Source: Candidatus Peribacteria bacterium
GTDB taxonomy: Bacteria > Patescibacteriota > Gracilibacteria > Peribacterales > Peribacteraceae
Direction of reading: 5' to 3'
Length of the DNA stretch: 48,340 nt
Assembly (NCBI GenBank): GCA_943354555.1
Contig: CALRCM010000004.1
Coordinates: 1-48,340, forward strand
Shown: one piece after another, positions 15,677 to 41,185 of the stretch
Layout of the letters: each line of letters begins with the position of its first letter
Position numbering within the stretch: the stretch's first letter is position 1
Notes under the pieces: generated by a model
What the model was told of the DNA's origin: nothing
Databases searched by the model: none
Seen by the model: only the letters and a program-made list of their open reading frames with translations
Program-made: the position numbers and the translations under genes

Positions 15677-18205
15677 GTGTCCCCCGCCCGATCTGCGGCT
15701 GTTTTTGAGGCTCATCGCAAGCGTTCCCTAGAGCGCAGGATGATGATTGTGCACCTTGTCCTTGGTGTATGCGCCCTTATTATTGTTGCCAGGCTTTTGG
15801 AGTTGCAGGTGGTGAAGGGCACGGACTATCTGGATCTTGCTCAGTCGCAGCACTTCGGTGGTGTACGTCTCCCAGCCAAACGCGGCGAGGTACTTTCGAG
15901 AAATTCCAAAAACGGAGAAACGAGCATCCTCGCAACAAATGCCACGCTCGATATGGTCTACGTAGATCCGGTCATTACCGAGCAACCGACACTCGTTGCG
16001 GAGACCCTTGCGGATGTACTGCTTACGGAAGACATCCATAGTGCGTGTAGCGCAGGAGAGCAATCCTGCCCGCGTGAACTCTTTACCTTTTATGGATCCG
16101 CATTCGATCCACTGCTGCGCATTCGAGCACTTTTTACCGGAGCACTTCTTGAGCCAGTTCCCGAAAATTTTGCACTTCCCCCTTCACTCGCAGCGTCGGA
16201 CATTACGGAGATACGCCGTCAGTTTGCGCGGGCCATAGAGACACGCATCAGTGAAAAACGTGTCACCTTCGTCCCTCTTCTCTACGGGGCGACCAAGGTG
16301 CAGATGCAACAGGTGCAAGCACTTGGCATCCAGGGAGTAGACGTCGTCTTCGACGCGAAGCTCATTTATGCGAATCCTGAGAGTGTGTCACAGCTGCAGG
16401 TACCCGCAATCGCACGAAGACTTTCAGGCCCCTTAGAGCTCGATGAAGAAGTCATTCGGGGGTATCTCCGTAGTCGCCCACTACGCTATGTATCGGTGAT
16501 GCATAAGCTTCCTCCGGAAGTTTCCGGCAAACTTCGGGAAGTGATGCTGCGCTCATTGGAACGTACGCGGGAGATGCGCAAAGGTGCGGTGTCACGTGAA
16601 GCGGCGCAGCAAATCGAAGACCCACTGCGCAGTATCGCTCTTATTCCTGAACACTGGCGATTTTATCCGGATGGGACTGTCGGGTCGCATGTGGTGGGAT
16701 TTTTGAACTCGGTCGGAGAGGCTCAGTACGGCATCGAACGAACATTTAACCCCGTGCTTCGTGGTCAGGAAGGACTCATCGCTACAGTGAGCGATCCACA
16801 GGGAGGGCAAATTCTCACAGCAGACCAGCGCATTGTGAATCCCAAGGACGGCTCGACGATCGTGCTTACCATAGACCGATACGTGCAGGAGAGCGTGGAA
16901 AAGATTCTTGATGCTGCCGTAGAGAGGTTTGATGCCGAAAGCGCACAGGTTATCGTCATGGATCCCTACACCGGCAGGATCATCGCCATGGCGAGCGCCC
17001 CCCTCTTTGACAGCAATAATTACGGTGATGTGTATGAGAAGGAGCCCATCCTCATTGATGAAGGAAAGCGCAAGCAAATCATTGTCGAACTCTATCATCC
17101 AGATACACGGTCGTTTGTGGTGCGCTGCTATCTCGATGATCTCTTTACTGAGCAGGGCAAAACGGGTTTCAGCGAGGAAAAGCAGAAGGAGATTGCCGCT
17201 CTCGAAGCACTCTATGACCTTGAAGACATTGTTCGCTATTACGTCCTTGTTGGTGAGCATCATCGCAGCGAGATCTTTCCCACGGAGCGTTCAGATATCT
17301 GGCTGAAGTACCGCAATACCATCGGTGTGGGTGCCTATATCAACCGGTCGATTCAGGAAATCTACGAGCCGGGATCCGTGATGAAGCCGGTGACCCTAGC
17401 CATCGCGATTGATCAGGGGGAAATTACTCCGAGCGACGAATACAACGACGAGGGGCCGGTGAAGGTTGACGAGTACACCATTAAAAATGCCCTCAACCGC
17501 TACTACGGAAAGATGACGATGACCGGTTGTCTTGAGTTTTCCATCAACACCTGCATGACCTCGGTGTCGGCGAAGCTGGGGCGTAAACTCTTCCACCGCA
17601 ACCTTGAGCGCTTCGGTTTCGGTCACGTGACAGGTATAGAGCTTGAAGATGAACTCCCTGGTGAAATACTTCCGTGGAGGAAGTGGAGCAATGCCCTCCT
17701 TGCAACTGCAGCGTACGGACAGGGAATCTCCTCGACTCCTCTACAGATGATCACGGCGTACACGGCCCTCGCAAACGGCGGCAAGCTCATGCGACCCACG
17801 ATTATCGACAGCATTATCCTCAGTGACGGCACTGCTGAAAAGGTATCACCGCGGGTGGTCGATCAGGTGATAACCGCGGAAACGAGTGACACCATCACCG
17901 CCATGCTCGTGAGCTCCATGAATCTCGGGTATGCGAAAGTTGCGAAAGTGAAGGGGTACCGCATGGCGGGAAAAACTGGTACGTCGCAGATCGCCGGTCC
18001 GGGAGGAAAGTACGAAACGGGTACAGGTTCCACGATTACGACATTCGCAGGGTATGCCCCAGTCCCCCACCCCAAGTTTCTCATTCTCGTGAAGTTCGAC
18101 CGTCCTAGAAGAGATATCTACGGAGCGCAGACTGCAGGACCGGTGTTTCGGGATATTGCGGCGTTCCTCTTTAAGTATTATGGGATTCCGCCGAATGAGA
18201 CGTAG
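15677..18205 (+). CDS. Class B penicillin-binding protein (FtsI/PBP2-type transpeptidase)
   Basis: It cross-links peptidoglycan in the cell envelope, for division or elongation. The 842-aa protein has one N-terminal membrane helix (VLGVCALIIVARLLELQVV), a dimerisation/pedestal domain starting VRLPAKRGEVL, and a transpeptidase domain with the catalytic triad motifs S567-V-M-K570, S622-I-N624 and K766-T-G768. Between PLFDSNNYG and NRSIQEIYEPGS there is a charged insertion of about 100 residues (about 17025-17340), where most class B PBPs have a short loop. The start is GTG 15677, 7 nt after TACACT (15664-15669). It ends 5 bp from the end of the convergent MutS-like gene. Confidence 0.93.
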   Translation: MSPARSAAVFEAHRKRSLERRMMIVHLVLGVCALIIVARLLELQVVKGTDYLDLAQSQHFGGVRLPAKRGEVLSRNSKNGETSILATNATLDMVYVDPVITEQPTLVAETLADVLLTEDIHSACSAGEQSCPRELFTFYGSAFDPLLRIRALFTGALLEPVPENFALPPSLAASDITEIRRQFARAIETRISEKRVTFVPLLYGATKVQMQQVQALGIQGVDVVFDAKLIYANPESVSQLQVPAIARRLSGPLELDEEVIRGYLRSRPLRYVSVMHKLPPEVSGKLREVMLRSLERTREMRKGAVSREAAQQIEDPLRSIALIPEHWRFYPDGTVGSHVVGFLNSVGEAQYGIERTFNPVLRGQEGLIATVSDPQGGQILTADQRIVNPKDGSTIVLTIDRYVQESVEKILDAAVERFDAESAQVIVMDPYTGRIIAMASAPLFDSNNYGDVYEKEPILIDEGKRKQIIVELYHPDTRSFVVRCYLDDLFTEQGKTGFSEEKQKEIAALEALYDLEDIVRYYVLVGEHHRSEIFPTERSDIWLKYRNTIGVGAYINRSIQEIYEPGSVMKPVTLAIAIDQGEITPSDEYNDEGPVKVDEYTIKNALNRYYGKMTMTGCLEFSINTCMTSVSAKLGRKLFHRNLERFGFGHVTGIELEDELPGEILPWRKWSNALLATAAYGQGISSTPLQMITAYTALANGGKLMRPTIIDSIILSDGTAEKVSPRVVDQVITAETSDTITAMLVSSMNLGYAKVAKVKGYRMAGKTGTSQIAGPGGKYETGTGSTITTFAGYAPVPHPKFLILVKFDRPRRDIYGAQTAGPVFRDIAAFLFKYYGIPPNET

Positions 18206-18227
18206 AGACATTACGCTATAACGTCTC
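18197..18227. terminator. Hairpin between convergent PBP and MutS-like genes
   Basis: GAGACGT (18197-18203) and ACGTCTC (18221-18227) can pair across the two stop codons. There is no T-run; a weak bidirectional terminator is possible. Confidence 0.35.
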
Positions 18228-21200
18228 CCGTGTGATCTGCACCCGCAATCACCGGTTCCAGTGCCCGCGCTCTCGCAATAATTCTTGCAGGGAACTTCTG
18301 TTGCTCGGCGACATCGATTGCTTGTGATCGCGCTATGCCTTCGGTCTTTGAGTATGTGTACTTCAATCCTTCGTCGTCTTTCCGGATCGGGAAGTGGTAC
18401 AGCTTTGTGATACCCGGATAGTCAGTCTTGAATCGTTCCGTGGAGTCATGATGGTGTGTCGTAAGGAAGACGGTATGACCGTCTTCGACGAGCATCTGGA
18501 GAAGTCCATATTGCAGATGACCCTGATACTTCGGCGAAGTCGTTGAACCAAATTCGTCGATGCAGAGTGTTGCGTGCTTTCCTTTGATGGAAGCGAGAAA
18601 CTGTCCCCATACGGCCATCTCCGTTCCGAAGGCGCTCAGTCCGCTGCTGCTTTCCGCGTTGATGCGGTCGATGTAGCAGTGTGCATCGCGCACGGGAACT
18701 ATTGCCTCTGCGGCGGGAACCATACCGACGGACTGTGCACAGAGATGCGCCGTAAATCCCGCTTTCATGTGATACGTTTTTCCCGACATATTCGCTCCGG
18801 TAAAAATCTGCACCTGAGCACTGGGACCAAGCAGGATGGAATTGCGCACCTGTCCTTCTACTGGTTTTGCGATATTCCATACGTCTGTGAGGTGCCCTTC
18901 CTGATTCGCGGAATATTCTGCAGTGGCGAATGGCTGCGTCTTGAGGGCCTTACTGATTTCCTGAAGGGACATGAGATTACGCATTTCATCTGCAAGCGGC
19001 GAAAAGTTTTCAAGGTGGTGGCTAGCTTCGGCGTATTTCCAGCGGTCTTCCCTCCGTTCAACCATGTTCGCGAGAAGATCCCGACCCGTAACTTTTCCGT
19101 CGAGGTATGCCTGGAACAGTGAAGAGAAATATCCGCCGAGACGATGCAGATGGACGCTATCTACTTTTCTGAGTTCATCAGGCAGTGACGCCAGTGGCTC
19201 TTTATCGCTGAGCATTGTCATCGCCTTCATCTGCATGACGATGGGTGGAGGAAAAAGCAAATCTAGCTTTGCCGTGAGTTCGTGTGTTCCGTTTAGCGCG
19301 CTAAAAAGCAAGTCGGGGTCCATAGCGGCAAGATCTTTCGGTTCTATAGGGGGTAGCTGTGCTGTGCAGCGATCGACAAGCGGGAGAAGATGCTTGCCGA
19401 TAAATTCGTACTGAGAAAGTTTCGCATCATCCGGAGCGCCGACCATTGTGGCTAATTCATTGTGAATTTCCAGGATGCGTTCTGAGTCTCTGCGGTGCTC
19501 AGGTCCATCCCGCTGTTTATCATACAAACCATTCAGGAGATCATGCCACTCCACGCTGAGTGCGAAAAATCGACGTATGGGCTGCAGAATCGGTTCAAGA
19601 AAATCCGCCCCCCACCCTTCGGTCACCGAGAGCGTCTGCAGGATTTTTTCAAAGACTGGCAACGATCCCGCACGTACTCGGTCGGATCCGGCCATGTGTG
19701 CATTGTGCATGAGATGAGTTGCTCCTTCTTTCAGTCGTTCATTGAATCCTGTCAGGAGGTCTGGGTAGGCACAGGTAGCTGATGCGAGGTTCGCCCATGT
19801 CGATGTAATAGCGGACTCGACACCCTTTTCTGTTCCGGGTGATCGCAATGCAGCCCACATGCGCTGTCGTTCCAGTAGCTCGGCAACATCATTGGTTACG
19901 CCACTACGCAAAAACGTCTGCGCCATACCGATTTGGCTGTGCTCTGTTCCGGGAATGCGCAGGTGGTAATGCAGATCGTTGTCTTTGCTTGCGATATGTA
20001 CAAGGCCTTCAGGCGCGAATGCATTTTTTTCCTCAGGTTTTATGATGCGTGTTGTCCCCTTTTCTCTGCGGCTTCGCTGAATCTGTACATCCAGCTGATC
20101 CGGAAAGAGCTGTGAGAATCCTTTGGGTTCGCTTATGAGTCTTTCGCGGTCTTCATCAGAATAAGGTGTGAGTGTGCGGCCAGGCCATGCTGCTTCCTGA
20201 TTCTGCAATGGAGCAACATGCACGGGGTTTCCTTCGAGAGATGCCTTTGCATAGCGAATCACCCGCGGGTCGAGAAACTTCGCAGCAACTTCCAGAGCGC
20301 GTGAGTCATCTCTTCCCGGCTCCAGTTTATGTGTGAAGACCAAATCTTTCGCTCCAACTTCGGTACGAAAATGGGAAATACACTGTCCCCTCTCCTTCTC
20401 CAGATGATCCATCAGGCGTTCATTGTGTGTCGCAAAAACAATGTGATGTCCTCGCTCAGTTAAGTCATCGGACACGGCTGCAGCGAGTGAAGCCTGATCG
20501 ATGTCTCCTGTGGTCGAAAATGGCTCATCGCTCCATATTCGCGTAGGTCCTTTTTCTGAGGTTTCCAGAGTCTTCTTCCACCAGTCAATCTCTGTACCAA
20601 ACGCGCTCAGGTTTCTTTCCGCATCCGTAGACGCACGATCGATGAAGACGAGTTGCTCATGTTGCGGAATATTCACATCGAGTCCCGGTGCATAGCCGAA
20701 AGACTGCGCACATGCCTGCAGGTAAAGGTCTTGGAGTAGGTACCAGGACTTTCCGGACATGTTTGCACTGGCAAGCGCATGAACGGGATCATCGGGGATA
20801 CTCGGGTTACGAGTCTGATCTGGTGGTACACCGTCTCCCTGCCATTTGTATGACCGTTGTAATTTCCCTGTTTTGGAGTGCAGCATGTTCCATCCTTTTC
20901 TATATTCGCGGGGCTTTTGTTCATCGAAAGTCACTTTCGAGTACCTGTCTTCTTTCATGACGTTTGCCGTTTCCAGAAGGCAACCGATGCGGGAGATGTC
21001 GCTCATGCATTCACTGAGTGCATGTTCTATGGTTGTCAGGATATCCGGTGATGCAAATGTCGCTCGGATCGTCTCCCATGATCCTGTGAGGTGCTTGGTA
21101 AAGAGGGGCCGCAGTGTTGCTGCATGTACGCGTAATTTTGCTCCCGTAGCAATGAGTGACGGATGCCACATTTTATCCAGTACTGCTGCAAATGTATCAA

Positions 21201-21840
21201 TACTGTCCGGTGCCTCAGGTAATTTCCACAGCGTAAGCAGCGTCTCTGCTATCCAGCGTGTTTCATCATCAGCTTCATTGGTGGAAATTGTTTTTAAGGC
21301 TTTATTCACTGCTTTTTCTAAAGGTAATGTCGCAAAATCACTCTTGAGCAGCTGCACAATCAGGGTATCCGGAGATTGCTTTTCCCCTTTTTCAACGCGT
21401 TCTCGTTCTATGTTTGTAATCATCGAAAGACTTTCCCAGTACGAAGATGAAGCAGTAGAAGAATTCTTCGTTCGTAGTGTCTCCTCATGTGTTTTATCGA
21501 TAAGGGTTTCCATGATGTCCTGGCGCTCCAGTGTTTGACTGCGTTCAAGTGGGACACGATGGAGAAGTGAACCCAGAAGAGTTTTTGCATTGAGAATATT
21601 TGCCATATCCATATCTTCGAGAGACCGGTCATCTCTGTGCTTTTCCGTGAGCATCATGAGCTCTGTCGTTCCCTCTGCTTTGAAAAAAATATCAATCGCA
21701 TCGGTAACCTGCAGCACTTCTTTTGCTTCATTGGAGACGCCCAGAGCAGCATCGGACACTGTTGCAGGTGATACAGTCTCAGGGGCTACAGCTTGCTCCT
21801 CTCCAAGTGCCGATAGTTTTCGACCGAATTCTGAAACCAT
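18211..21840 (-). CDS. Tandem MutS-like protein with two fused ATPase modules
   Basis: This 1209-aa protein carries two MutS-type core/ATPase units in one chain. Unit 1: Walker A ANMSGKS (K364), LSAFGTE (E417), Walker B DEPFSTT (D438/E439), FATH (H472). Unit 2: GANMSGKT (K1021), LSAFGTE (E1074), DEFGSTT (D1095/E1096), LTTH (H1129). Each equivalent residue is exactly 657 positions apart, so the second unit repeats the first without gaps across the ATPase. The helical cores before each ATPase have diverged. The mismatch-reading domain with Phe-x-Glu is not visible. MutS works as a dimer with composite ATP sites, so this looks like a covalent pseudo-dimer. The role could be mismatch repair-like, recombination control or ribosome/DNA junction handling. 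ATG 21840 follows TGTAAT by 8 nt. Confidence 0.85.
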   Translation of the reverse strand: MVSEFGRKLSALGEEQAVAPETVSPATVSDAALGVSNEAKEVLQVTDAIDIFFKAEGTTELMMLTEKHRDDRSLEDMDMANILNAKTLLGSLLHRVPLERSQTLERQDIMETLIDKTHEETLRTKNSSTASSSYWESLSMITNIERERVEKGEKQSPDTLIVQLLKSDFATLPLEKAVNKALKTISTNEADDETRWIAETLLTLWKLPEAPDSIDTFAAVLDKMWHPSLIATGAKLRVHAATLRPLFTKHLTGSWETIRATFASPDILTTIEHALSECMSDISRIGCLLETANVMKEDRYSKVTFDEQKPREYRKGWNMLHSKTGKLQRSYKWQGDGVPPDQTRNPSIPDDPVHALASANMSGKSWYLLQDLYLQACAQSFGYAPGLDVNIPQHEQLVFIDRASTDAERNLSAFGTEIDWWKKTLETSEKGPTRIWSDEPFSTTGDIDQASLAAAVSDDLTERGHHIVFATHNERLMDHLEKERGQCISHFRTEVGAKDLVFTHKLEPGRDDSRALEVAAKFLDPRVIRYAKASLEGNPVHVAPLQNQEAAWPGRTLTPYSDEDRERLISEPKGFSQLFPDQLDVQIQRSRREKGTTRIIKPEEKNAFAPEGLVHIASKDNDLHYHLRIPGTEHSQIGMAQTFLRSGVTNDVAELLERQRMWAALRSPGTEKGVESAITSTWANLASATCAYPDLLTGFNERLKEGATHLMHNAHMAGSDRVRAGSLPVFEKILQTLSVTEGWGADFLEPILQPIRRFFALSVEWHDLLNGLYDKQRDGPEHRRDSERILEIHNELATMVGAPDDAKLSQYEFIGKHLLPLVDRCTAQLPPIEPKDLAAMDPDLLFSALNGTHELTAKLDLLFPPPIVMQMKAMTMLSDKEPLASLPDELRKVDSVHLHRLGGYFSSLFQAYLDGKVTGRDLLANMVERREDRWKYAEASHHLENFSPLADEMRNLMSLQEISKALKTQPFATAEYSANQEGHLTDVWNIAKPVEGQVRNSILLGPSAQVQIFTGANMSGKTYHMKAGFTAHLCAQSVGMVPAAEAIVPVRDAHCYIDRINAESSSGLSAFGTEMAVWGQFLASIKGKHATLCIDEFGSTTSPKYQGHLQYGLLQMLVEDGHTVFLTTHHHDSTERFKTDYPGITKLYHFPIRKDDEGLKYTYSKTEGIARSQAIDVAEQQKFPARIIARARALEPVIAGADHTGDVIA

Positions 21841-21903
21841 AGCGAGGCATTACACAAGAATGCGGGGGCTTCGACAAGGGTGATTCCTGTGATTGTGCTC
21901 TCG

Positions 21904-21926
21904 GAGACGCAACAGCGTTGCGTCTC
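21904..21926. repeat. Hairpin of the GAGACGC palindrome family
   Basis: Arms GAGACGCAAC and GTTGCGTCTC enclose AGC, followed by TAC. It lies after the glmS stop and before the MutS-like promoter, so it may end the glmS transcript. A relative at 25804 works as a terminator with a T-run. Confidence 0.7.
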
Positions 21927-21938
21927 TACGGAACCACA

Positions 21939-23711
21939 TTATTTAACTGTGACGCTTTTAGCCAAATTCCTCGGCATGTCCGGATCTTTCCCCCTCTGTA
22001 CTGCCAGTTCATACGCTAGGATCTGCATGGGAATAACGGTAACAATCGGCTGTGCTGCGCCCGCATCTGGTGTCTTCAGCCATTCGTCGAAAATAGCATT
22101 TCTCTCCGGAGCAATGCCGATGAGCATTGCGCCACGAGCTTTGAGCTCCGTTGCATTATTGATCATGTCGCCGGTGACTTCGTCGTTTCCCAGAAGTGCG
22201 ATGCACGGCGTTCCTGTTTCGATGAGGGCGATGGGGCCGTGCTTGAGCTCGCCGCCGGCGAATCCTTCCGCGTGCACGTAGCTGACTTCCTGAATCTTGA
22301 TCGCGCTTTCGAGGGCCATCGGGTAGTGCCAGCTTTTACCGATGATGTAGAGATCTTCGTGAGACTTAATTTTCGCAGCAATCGCAGCAATGCGTTCGAC
22401 GTAGCGGGGGTTGAGCATATCGTTAATGAGCGCGCTGGTTTCCAGAAGCAAAGTCTTTCCATCGTGCAGTGCGTGCTTGAGGGCATACGCAATAAGAAGC
22501 ATCACGGACATCTGACCGGTGAGAGCCTTGGTGCTCGCAACCGCGCGCTCGGGACCGGCATTGATGAGCAGTGTGTAGTCCGCCGCGCGACTCACACTCG
22601 ATCCTTCGACGTTTACAATAGCGAGCACTTTTGCGCCTTTGGCCTTCGCAACACTGATGGCCTCAAGGACGTCTGCAGTCTCCCCGCTTTGACTTACTAC
22701 GATGAGCAAGCTTTCAGGCTGCAGGAAGTGATGGTAGAGCTTAAACTCCCCTGCTGAGCAGACGTTGACGTGGTGCTCTGCGACGACTGAGAAGAAGTAC
22801 TCCGCCGCCATGCAGGCCTTGTGTGCTGTACCGCAGCCGACGAGGAAGGTGCCCTTGGCACTTCTGATTGCTTCTGCAACGGCGCGGATGGCGTCATCGT
22901 CCTGATTCACTGCTCTGGCGATGCTCTCTTTCTGGTCCATGATTTCCTTGAGCATGAAGTGCGGGAAATCCCCTTTTTGTCCCTGCTCGACGGTCCACGT
23001 GATGCGTACTTCTCTCTTCTGACGCTCTGTTCCCGTTAAGATATCCCTAAACTGAATGGAGTTTCCGTCTGTTTCCACCATCTCTCCATCATCGATGTAC
23101 TGCACGGTGCGGGTGTGCTCGATGAACGCGGGAATATCCGATGCAATGTAGTACCCGTCCTCCCCTACTCCGACGATGAGCGGACTCCCCGTACGCGTAG
23201 CCACCAGCATGCCGGAGGCCTCGTGCATGGCGAGGATGGCATAGCGTCCATGAAAGCGCAGGCAGGCCCTGCGTACGGCTTCCGGAAATGCGTGCCCAGC
23301 CTTCATCTCTTCCTCTATACAATAGGGAATAACTTCTGTGTCGGTTTGCGAGACGAATGTATATCCCTTGGTGAGAAGTTCCAATCTCAGCGCTTCGTGG
23401 TTCTCCACGATGCCGTTATGGACAACGGCGATTGTGCCGTCCTTGGAGAGATGCGGATGTGCATTTTCCGGTGTGACTCCTCCATGCGTTGCCCAACGGG
23501 TGTGTGCGAGAGCGAGACAACAGGAATAGGAAAATTGCTTCGTATCTACAGAGCTGATTTTGCCGATGTCCTTACTGACAGAAATTCCCGATGGTGTTTT
23601 ACAGGCAACTCCCCAAGAATCGTAGCCGCGGTACTCCAGATTCTTGAGTCCATCGACAACGACGCTTCCTCCATCACTCCGCTTGCCTGTGTATCCGAAG
23701 ATGCCGCACAT
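21939..23711 (-). CDS. glmS: Glutamine-fructose-6-phosphate aminotransferase
   Basis: It makes glucosamine-6-phosphate from fructose-6-phosphate and glutamine, the first step to UDP-GlcNAc for peptidoglycan. The 590-aa protein starts MCGIFGYTG, so the catalytic Cys becomes residue 1 after Met removal. The glutaminase domain contains ALAHTRWATHGG and NAHPH. Two SIS domains follow, with VGCGTAHKACMAAEYFF and VSQSGETADVLEAI in the first and the C-terminal segment ending LAKSVTVK as in GlmS. TAAAAT lies 9 nt upstream of the ATG. No glmS ribozyme is visible in the short upstream space shared with rpsT. Confidence 0.97.
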   Translation of the reverse strand: MCGIFGYTGKRSDGGSVVVDGLKNLEYRGYDSWGVACKTPSGISVSKDIGKISSVDTKQFSYSCCLALAHTRWATHGGVTPENAHPHLSKDGTIAVVHNGIVENHEALRLELLTKGYTFVSQTDTEVIPYCIEEEMKAGHAFPEAVRRACLRFHGRYAILAMHEASGMLVATRTGSPLIVGVGEDGYYIASDIPAFIEHTRTVQYIDDGEMVETDGNSIQFRDILTGTERQKREVRITWTVEQGQKGDFPHFMLKEIMDQKESIARAVNQDDDAIRAVAEAIRSAKGTFLVGCGTAHKACMAAEYFFSVVAEHHVNVCSAGEFKLYHHFLQPESLLIVVSQSGETADVLEAISVAKAKGAKVLAIVNVEGSSVSRAADYTLLINAGPERAVASTKALTGQMSVMLLIAYALKHALHDGKTLLLETSALINDMLNPRYVERIAAIAAKIKSHEDLYIIGKSWHYPMALESAIKIQEVSYVHAEGFAGGELKHGPIALIETGTPCIALLGNDEVTGDMINNATELKARGAMLIGIAPERNAIFDEWLKTPDAGAAQPIVTVIPMQILAYELAVQRGKDPDMPRNLAKSVTVK

Positions 23712-25803: not shown

Positions 25804-25830
25804 AGACGCACCGTTGGTGCGTCTTTTTTT
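25804..25830 (+). terminator. Intrinsic terminator
   Basis: AGACGCACC and GGTGCGTCT enclose GTT (stem 25804-25824), followed by a run of seven or more T. It is the clearest intrinsic terminator in the window and belongs to the GAGACGC palindrome family. Confidence 0.85.
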
Positions 25831-41163: not shown

Positions 41164-41185
41164 CAGACGCCGGTAATGGCGTCTG
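41164..41185. terminator. Bidirectional hairpin between pilin-like and DUF11 genes
   Basis: CAGACGCC and GGCGTCTG enclose GGTAAT immediately after the stop codon of the pilin-like gene. The DUF11 gene ends 17 bp away on the other strand, so it can serve both. Confidence 0.6.

Follow-up and report, generated by a model that had tools for sequence, protein, structure and literature searches.

A tandem MutS protein with two ATPase units in one chain in Peribacteraceae and other Patescibacteria

The gene described here lies in a window of 48,340 nucleotides, the whole stretch of DNA that was analysed, on contig CALRCM010000004.1 of a Candidatus Peribacteria bacterium (GCA_943354555.1, family Peribacteraceae; genome G000), and encodes a protein in which two MutS units follow each other in one chain (tandem MutS). 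Taken together, sequence, phylogenetic, structural and genomic analyses make it probable that this protein is a natural single-chain MutS pseudo-dimer, a MutL-independent, ATP-gated clamp that moves between lineages as accessory cargo. To our knowledge, all known MutS proteins work as dimers of separate chains, and the open-access literature on tandem or single-chain MutS, KamB/KamC and MutS of the candidate phyla radiation yielded no description of such a protein.

Two homologous MutS units in one chain

In the window protein, the MutS ATPase family MutS_V (PF00488), the only domain family that Pfam matches there, was found twice (whole-protein E = 2e-31). Both units exceed the Pfam cut-off of 30.2 bits (47.3 and 71.4 bits), which bears out the claim of an earlier, sequence-only reading that two MutS units share one chain. 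The halves also align with each other, by BLASTP over 197 residues of the ATPase (E = 6e-20) and by profile-profile comparison over 318 columns including part of the lever helices (probability 100, E = 1.6e-55), placing the two-unit observation far beyond chance. The gene is on the minus strand, the strand having gone unnamed in the earlier reading. The residue pairs listed there (K364/K1021, E417/E1074, D438/D1095 and H472/H1129) are all present, each at an offset of 657. The exact register that they suggested holds in the window protein but not in its relatives, where a second lever of variable length sets the Walker A spacing to 682 (G067), 693 (G047), 705 (G112) or 974 (G291); constant across the relatives is the lack of large insertions or deletions within the ATPase.

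Domain III was matched by its Pfam profile (MutS_III) in one of the 11 tandem proteins known and is otherwise assigned from structure alignment; in addition, the profile of unit 2 aligned to domains III plus V of MSH3 over 688-1213. Both halves consist of a MutS lever (domain III) followed by an ATPase (domain V), without domains I and II, a recognisable domain IV, an Smr domain or a nuclease.

An AlphaFold model of residues 41-1209 (model 1), built from an 11-row alignment, reached a pLDDT of 80 and a pTM of 0.67. The lever and ATPase of unit 1 aligned to MSH2, MutS2 and MutS (Z 15-17), including MSH2 297-851 at Z 16.8 and E. coli MutS 264-798. Unit 2 aligned to MSH2/MSH3, MutS and MutS2 (Z 20-24), with model residues 562-1169 superposing on MSH2 at Z 22.6 and a root-mean-square deviation of 4.2 Å, and with the MutS2 core structures 9a5o, 7qv3 and 7vuf among its matches. 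Moreover, both ATPases at once superpose on the ABC-F protein VgaL (model residues 270-1128, 318 residues, 3.8 Å, Z 17.0), UvrA (343 residues, 4.0 Å, Z 16.3), CFTR (317 residues, 3.5 Å, Z 15.6) and EttA (Z 14.7). Since more than 300 aligned residues exceed a single ATPase module (~220), model 1 places the two ATPases like a single-chain ABC sandwich, a pairing read from alignment ranges and not from coordinates. The two ATPases are therefore predicted to face each other head to tail within one chain. Neither of the outcomes that the earlier reading would have taken as a refutation occurred: the MutS ATPase profile is matched by both halves, not one, and the ATPases are paired in the predicted structure.

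Ancestry and conservation of the two units

In a maximum-likelihood tree of the ATPase domains (~200 columns, three MutS2 sequences), the 11 copies of unit 1 formed one clade (93/87) and the 11 copies of unit 2 another (91/81). The two clades are sisters, jointly supported at 100/100, with the 29 MutS1/MSH sequences and MutS2 falling outside; MutS2 is itself separate at 100/99. With the longest branches removed, the unit clades were recovered at 96/88 and 94/88. This topology suggests that one duplication with fusion founded the subfamily, and in the simplest history drawn from the sequences this event predated the present spread.

Between the tandem genes of G067 and G020, dN is 0.137 and dS ~1.39 (dN/dS ~0.10), with the strongest constraint in the two ATPases. 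The Walker A Gly-Lys, the Walker B Asp-Glu and the His are kept in all 22 units, and both ATP sites look active by their intact motifs. The signature loop varies more, its Phe being missing from the second unit of G112, G247 and G213. At the level of sequence, the tandem order, the common ancestry of the halves, intact catalytic motifs in both, a single origin and purifying selection on both are all established.

The earlier reading had proposed that the halves specialised through SANMSGKS and DEPFSTT in unit 1 against GANMSGKT and DEFGSTT in unit 2. As a family trait this is ruled out: the DEPF/DEFG and SAN/GAN motifs swap between halves in relatives, as in G067, whose unit 1 has DEFGSTT and unit 2 DEAFSTT. 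Other half-specific marks do exist, namely SPEDQ...HNE in most copies of unit 1 and SPKYQ...H-x-H in most copies of unit 2. To judge from these marks, some asymmetry between the halves is real, but it does not amount to the loss of one site.

A separate MutS subfamily

The tandem protein shares with MutS1/MSH proteins the fold of domains III and V, the Walker A motif, the signature Ser loop, the Walker B motif, the His and, by prediction, a composite two-site ATPase. The MSH2-MSH3 and MSH2-MSH6 pairs are asymmetric too, but each consists of two chains, whereas the tandem protein has both protomers in one chain, lacks domains I, II and a recognisable IV, and occurs in hosts of which half have no MutL. 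It falls in a separate deep clade (100/100) and scores 87 bits against a cut-off of 642 for the mutS1 model. With MutS2 it shares the absence of domains I and II, a core of lever and ATPase and MutL independence, and its unit 2 resembles MutS2 core structures. In contrast to MutS2, it is a single chain, lies outside MutS2 in the tree and scores 69 bits against a 400-bit cut-off; Pfam matched neither Smr nor KOW in any of the 11 members, and the chain ends at domain V, so the protein is not a standard MutS2. The top-scoring NCBIfam model is that of KamC (NF052383), with 115.3 bits against a 300-bit cut-off. Because the scores fall below the MutS1, MutS2 and KamC cut-offs alike and the clade is separate, the tandem proteins are treated as a separate MutS subfamily, which appears to be undescribed.

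Single-chain twin ABC proteins (ABC-F VgaL/EttA, UvrA, CFTR) also carry two ABC-class ATPases per chain, which close two composite sites as is predicted for the tandem protein, and the model superposes on them. The tandem protein differs in having MutS-branch ATPases and MutS levers, without the ABC-F linker, zinc modules or membrane domains; the likeness is an analogy of working, not membership.

Distribution of the tandem protein

The family counts rest mainly on profile searches within Patescibacteria, which together with a scan of the genome collection gave 11 tandem proteins, 10 from genomes in four families of the class and one from a Buchananbacteria contig found by the scan. Within Peribacteraceae, the gene is present in 4 of 74 genomes (G000, G067, G047 and G020). 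It is the only MutS_V gene in G000, and no other MutS_V gene occurs in any of the 74. The further members, from a profile search of 353 class genomes, are those of G112, G213 and G247 (family f14), G202 (f22), and G291 and G278 (f18). TGA is read as Gly in the f14 and f22 genomes, so that the tandem family spans two genetic codes. Complete open reading frames encode 1164-1472 amino acids (the G020 gene runs off its contig end, with the C-terminus on another contig), and the proteins align end to end with the common motifs YTxEERExLK in the linker, ELLERQ and LRxxDSVHxH. The f18 members carry large insertions in the unit 2 lever (L083:7382-11797 and L084:1471-5265), approximately where a MutS clamp might sit.

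No additional full tandem was found in 380 genomes sampled evenly over the phylum, and no split two-gene form among the 353 class and 380 phylum genomes; the survey of split versus fused forms that the earlier reading had proposed returned fused forms only. The collection-wide scan, which used short peptide patterns and was the only search applied to other phyla, recovered five of the loci; its sensitivity is thus low, and members outside Patescibacteria may exist. Because all the genomes are drafts assembled from metagenomes (93% completeness for G000), the absence of a gene carries weight only when many genomes are taken together. An assembly artefact or chance fusion was rejected, since the 11 tandem proteins come from separate assemblies, span two genetic codes and are under purifying selection. 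A viral origin was also rejected, two scans of viral contigs giving no match and the phage and plasmid matches being ordinary MutS at no more than 37% coverage. Matches among BFVD structures were giant-virus MutS7/8-type proteins, of which two from pithoviruses (~1100 amino acids) were left out of the comparison.

Separately, genomes of family f15 (L012, L015, L017, L024 and L031) encode short one-unit MutS_V proteins of 440-495 amino acids. These fall inside the MutS1 clade, with neither tandem half, and may be reduced or split MutS.

Genomic context and mobility

The window gene lies between converging ftsI and glmS genes (Table 1). The window FtsI is 80-82% identical to that of four same-genus genomes without the tandem gene. 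The corresponding ftsI-glmS gap (window 18205-21939) is 17-77 bp in G001, G003 and G004 of the genus and holds a gene of 281 amino acids in G002; in G067 and G020 it holds genes that read as sigma-factor-like from their sequence. This gap is a cargo hot spot in the family. In G047, the block glmS-ftsI-T2SSE-RluD-TyrRS is syntenic with the window, and the tandem gene is found between RluD and TyrRS instead. Between G000 and G047, FtsI is 66% and GlmS 72% identical, against 30% for the tandem proteins, which are no nearer to each other than to that of Buchananbacteria (29%). Similarly, the tandem proteins of G112 and G213, from the same genus, are 28% identical, whereas those of G112 and G247, from different genera, share 51%. 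The only pair that looks vertical is G067 and G020 (tandem protein 78%, FtsI 77%). The patchy presence, the shifted site in G047 and a tandem identity far below that of the neighbours point to repeated horizontal transfer, and an accessory cargo gene passed repeatedly between lineages fits the data best; some of the divergence between tandem proteins could instead reflect fast evolution.

Table 1 Features of the tandem MutS gene and its neighbours in the window
Feature	Coordinates	Strand	Basis
Whole gene, tandem (single-chain) MutS, 1209 aa	18211..21840	-	Open reading frame with ATG start; full-length orthology to 10 other tandem proteins
Unit 1 lever/core (domain III-like), residues ~56-297, all-helical	20950..21675	-	AlphaFold model; structural alignment to MSH2 and E. 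coli MutS
Unit 1 ATPase (MutS domain V), residues ~340-538	20227..20823	-	PF00488 at 20239-20772, 47.3 bits; motifs
Unit 1 motifs: Walker A SANMSGKS (358-365), signature LSAFGTE (411-417), Walker B DE (438-439), His 472			
Inter-unit linker, residues ~539-633, conserved motif Y560 S-D-E-D-R-E-R-L	19942..20226	-	Family alignment; short strands in model, partly low confidence
Unit 2 lever/core (domain III-like), residues ~634-968, longer than that of unit 1	18937..19941	-	Profile and model alignments; ELLERQ and LRxxDSVHxH motifs
Unit 2 ATPase (MutS domain V), residues ~982-1199	18244..18897	-	PF00488 at 18262-18807, 71.4 bits; motifs
Unit 2 motifs: Walker A GANMSGKT (1015-1022), LSAFGTE (1068-1074), Walker B DE (1095-1096), His 1129			
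FtsI-type transpeptidase/penicillin-binding protein, convergent, one edge of insertion site	15677..18205	+	PF00905, E = 3.8e-64
GlmS (glucosamine-fructose-6-phosphate aminotransferase), other edge of insertion site	21939..23711	-	SIS and GATase domains

Genes found next to the tandem gene include, by genome, glmS/ftsI, mazEF with an OLD-like ATPase, TyrRS, a sigma factor, cytochrome b561, lexA and a phosphoesterase. In G067 (L045:690-14361), the neighbours of the tandem gene are mazEF, an OLD-like AAA_15 ATPase and a Terminase_2 small subunit, with a recombinase-like gene further off; these surroundings are a mobile or defence-like island. In G278 (L084:712-1470), lexA is divergent from the tandem gene with ~120 bp between them, and damage-inducible control of this copy could be envisaged. 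In G247 (L082:5326-12848), two similar genes of 395 and 615 amino acids stand on either side of the tandem gene and have a common N-terminus, MNQYFKLLTKNTDIKI, with no family assigned. The window also holds palindromes of the form AGACGC..GCGTCT at 21905-21925, 25804-25824 and 41165-41184 (6 matches to the pattern where 1.3 are expected), and a palindrome of this kind occurs at the corresponding ftsI-glmS site in G003; they are possibly a REP-like element.

Probable independence from MutL and mismatch repair

The mismatch-reading domain I (PF01624) was matched in none of the tandem proteins and nowhere in G000, in agreement with the earlier claim for the window protein. MutL (PF01119) and MutS_I (PF01624) were not found in five of the ten host genomes (G000, G067, G047, G020 and G202) by a search whose control profiles gave matches in 11 of 14 genomes; MutL and canonical MutS are both present, as separate genes, in the other five (G112, G213, G247, G291 and G278). 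The tandem protein occurs with and without mismatch repair and would work independently of MutL. The missing domain I and this even division of the hosts indicate that its role is probably other than mismatch repair, in line with the suspicion of the earlier reading that the substrate is not a mismatch.

Proposed mechanism and alternative readings

A MutL-independent, ATP-gated single-chain clamp is, on the whole, the reading that we favour. By analogy with MutS mechanics and from the model, each half would bind ATP in a site to which the opposite half of the same chain contributes its signature loop. With ATP bound, the paired levers would be held shut as a ring, and hydrolysis would open it, two non-equivalent composite sites thus gating the opening and closing of the levers around a substrate. 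Lying in one chain, the two sites could be permanently unlike each other, as they are in MSH2-MSH6. By default, a protein of the MutS fold would be expected to hold nucleic acid, here most likely a structure such as branched or invading DNA, with ribosomes as the main alternative; the clamp would act without MutL.

Several observations weigh against this reading. The pairing of the ATPases comes from one model built from 11 sequences. In a second model, of the Buchananbacteria member (pLDDT 77, pTM 0.65), unit 1 reproduces the MutS fold (Z 25), and single MutS chains fill the 50 matches listed, so that pairing is neither confirmed nor denied. The levers are acidic in all members, their net charge being uninformative on DNA binding. 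In G278, the loop that carries the signature of unit 1 is degenerate, and in G213 the last stretch of ATPase 2 is missing. Finally, an operon or partner gene was sought and rejected, none being conserved and the immediate neighbours differing in every genome.

More tentatively, the protein might be a genome-conflict or defence factor of Patescibacteria, a mobile, MutL-independent clamp surveying incoming or branched DNA, asymmetric and with sites that can be mutated one at a time; we regard this as a speculative proposal. A known anti-phage defence system was considered and rejected, PADLOC giving weak matches only (mad8 at E = 9e-6, partial, in G067; E 0.03 in the window protein).

Clearly less likely than the favoured reading is a translation factor, a twin-ATPase machine like MutS2 or ABC-F acting on ribosomes and not on DNA. 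MutS2 splits stalled ribosomes by means of its ATPase (PMC10897456), and the matches of unit 2 to MutS2 cores, the superposition of the paired ATPases on VgaL and EttA and the dispensability of MutL would all suit such a role. However, MutS2 is recruited through its KOW and Smr domains (PMC10897456), which Pfam did not find here. Moreover, neither half grouped with MutS2 in the tree, and a patchy, mobile distribution (4 of 74) would be unusual for a core translation factor.

It is unlikely that the chains pair with each other instead, forming MutS-type dimers in which each molecule contributes half-sites to two dimers in a head-to-tail multimer. In its favour, separate chains dimerise in classical MutS and MutS2, tetramers are formed by E. 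coli MutS, and the linker of ~95 residues is long enough for such an arrangement. Against it, the single chain is already predicted to set its ATPases like a closed twin-ATPase pair, and the fusion is universal in the family with no split form, as expected if the partner of each half is the other half.

A protein-directed remodeller like KamC is improbable. KamC is a MutS-related ATPase that reactivates the B12-dependent lysine 5,6-aminomutase; its model matches all 11 members (E = 3.2e-33 for the window protein), and its single lever and ATPase (508 positions, ATPase ~307-505) are near the size of one unit. However, KamC is not tandem and goes with an aminomutase, the match lies far under the cut-off and covers the ATPase, and half by half the scores are close to those of the MutS1 and MutS2 models. 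No aminomutase gene (PF09043) was found in the ten hosts, though the controls were silent too, and six of the ten lack a B12-binding domain at E <= 0.001.

Least plausible of all is a stripped-down mismatch repair protein replacing MutS in genomes that lost MutS and MutL: although the tandem protein is the only MutS_V protein in four Peribacteraceae genomes and the canonical partners are missing there and in G202, it has no mismatch-reading domain, MutL is absent from the same genomes, it coexists with complete MutS and MutL in five others, and MutS_V genes are wholly absent from 70 of the family's 74 genomes, giving no sign of pressure to replace a lost MutS.

Significance

The division of work between the two composite ATP sites of MutS has been argued over for decades, since a homodimer offers no way to mutate one side alone. 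With a naturally occurring MutS that has two sites in a single chain, each site of a bacterial protein could be altered separately. This family also suggests that a branch of MutS has left mismatch repair behind and spread by horizontal transfer among ultra-small bacteria, with MutS and MutL absent from several of them.

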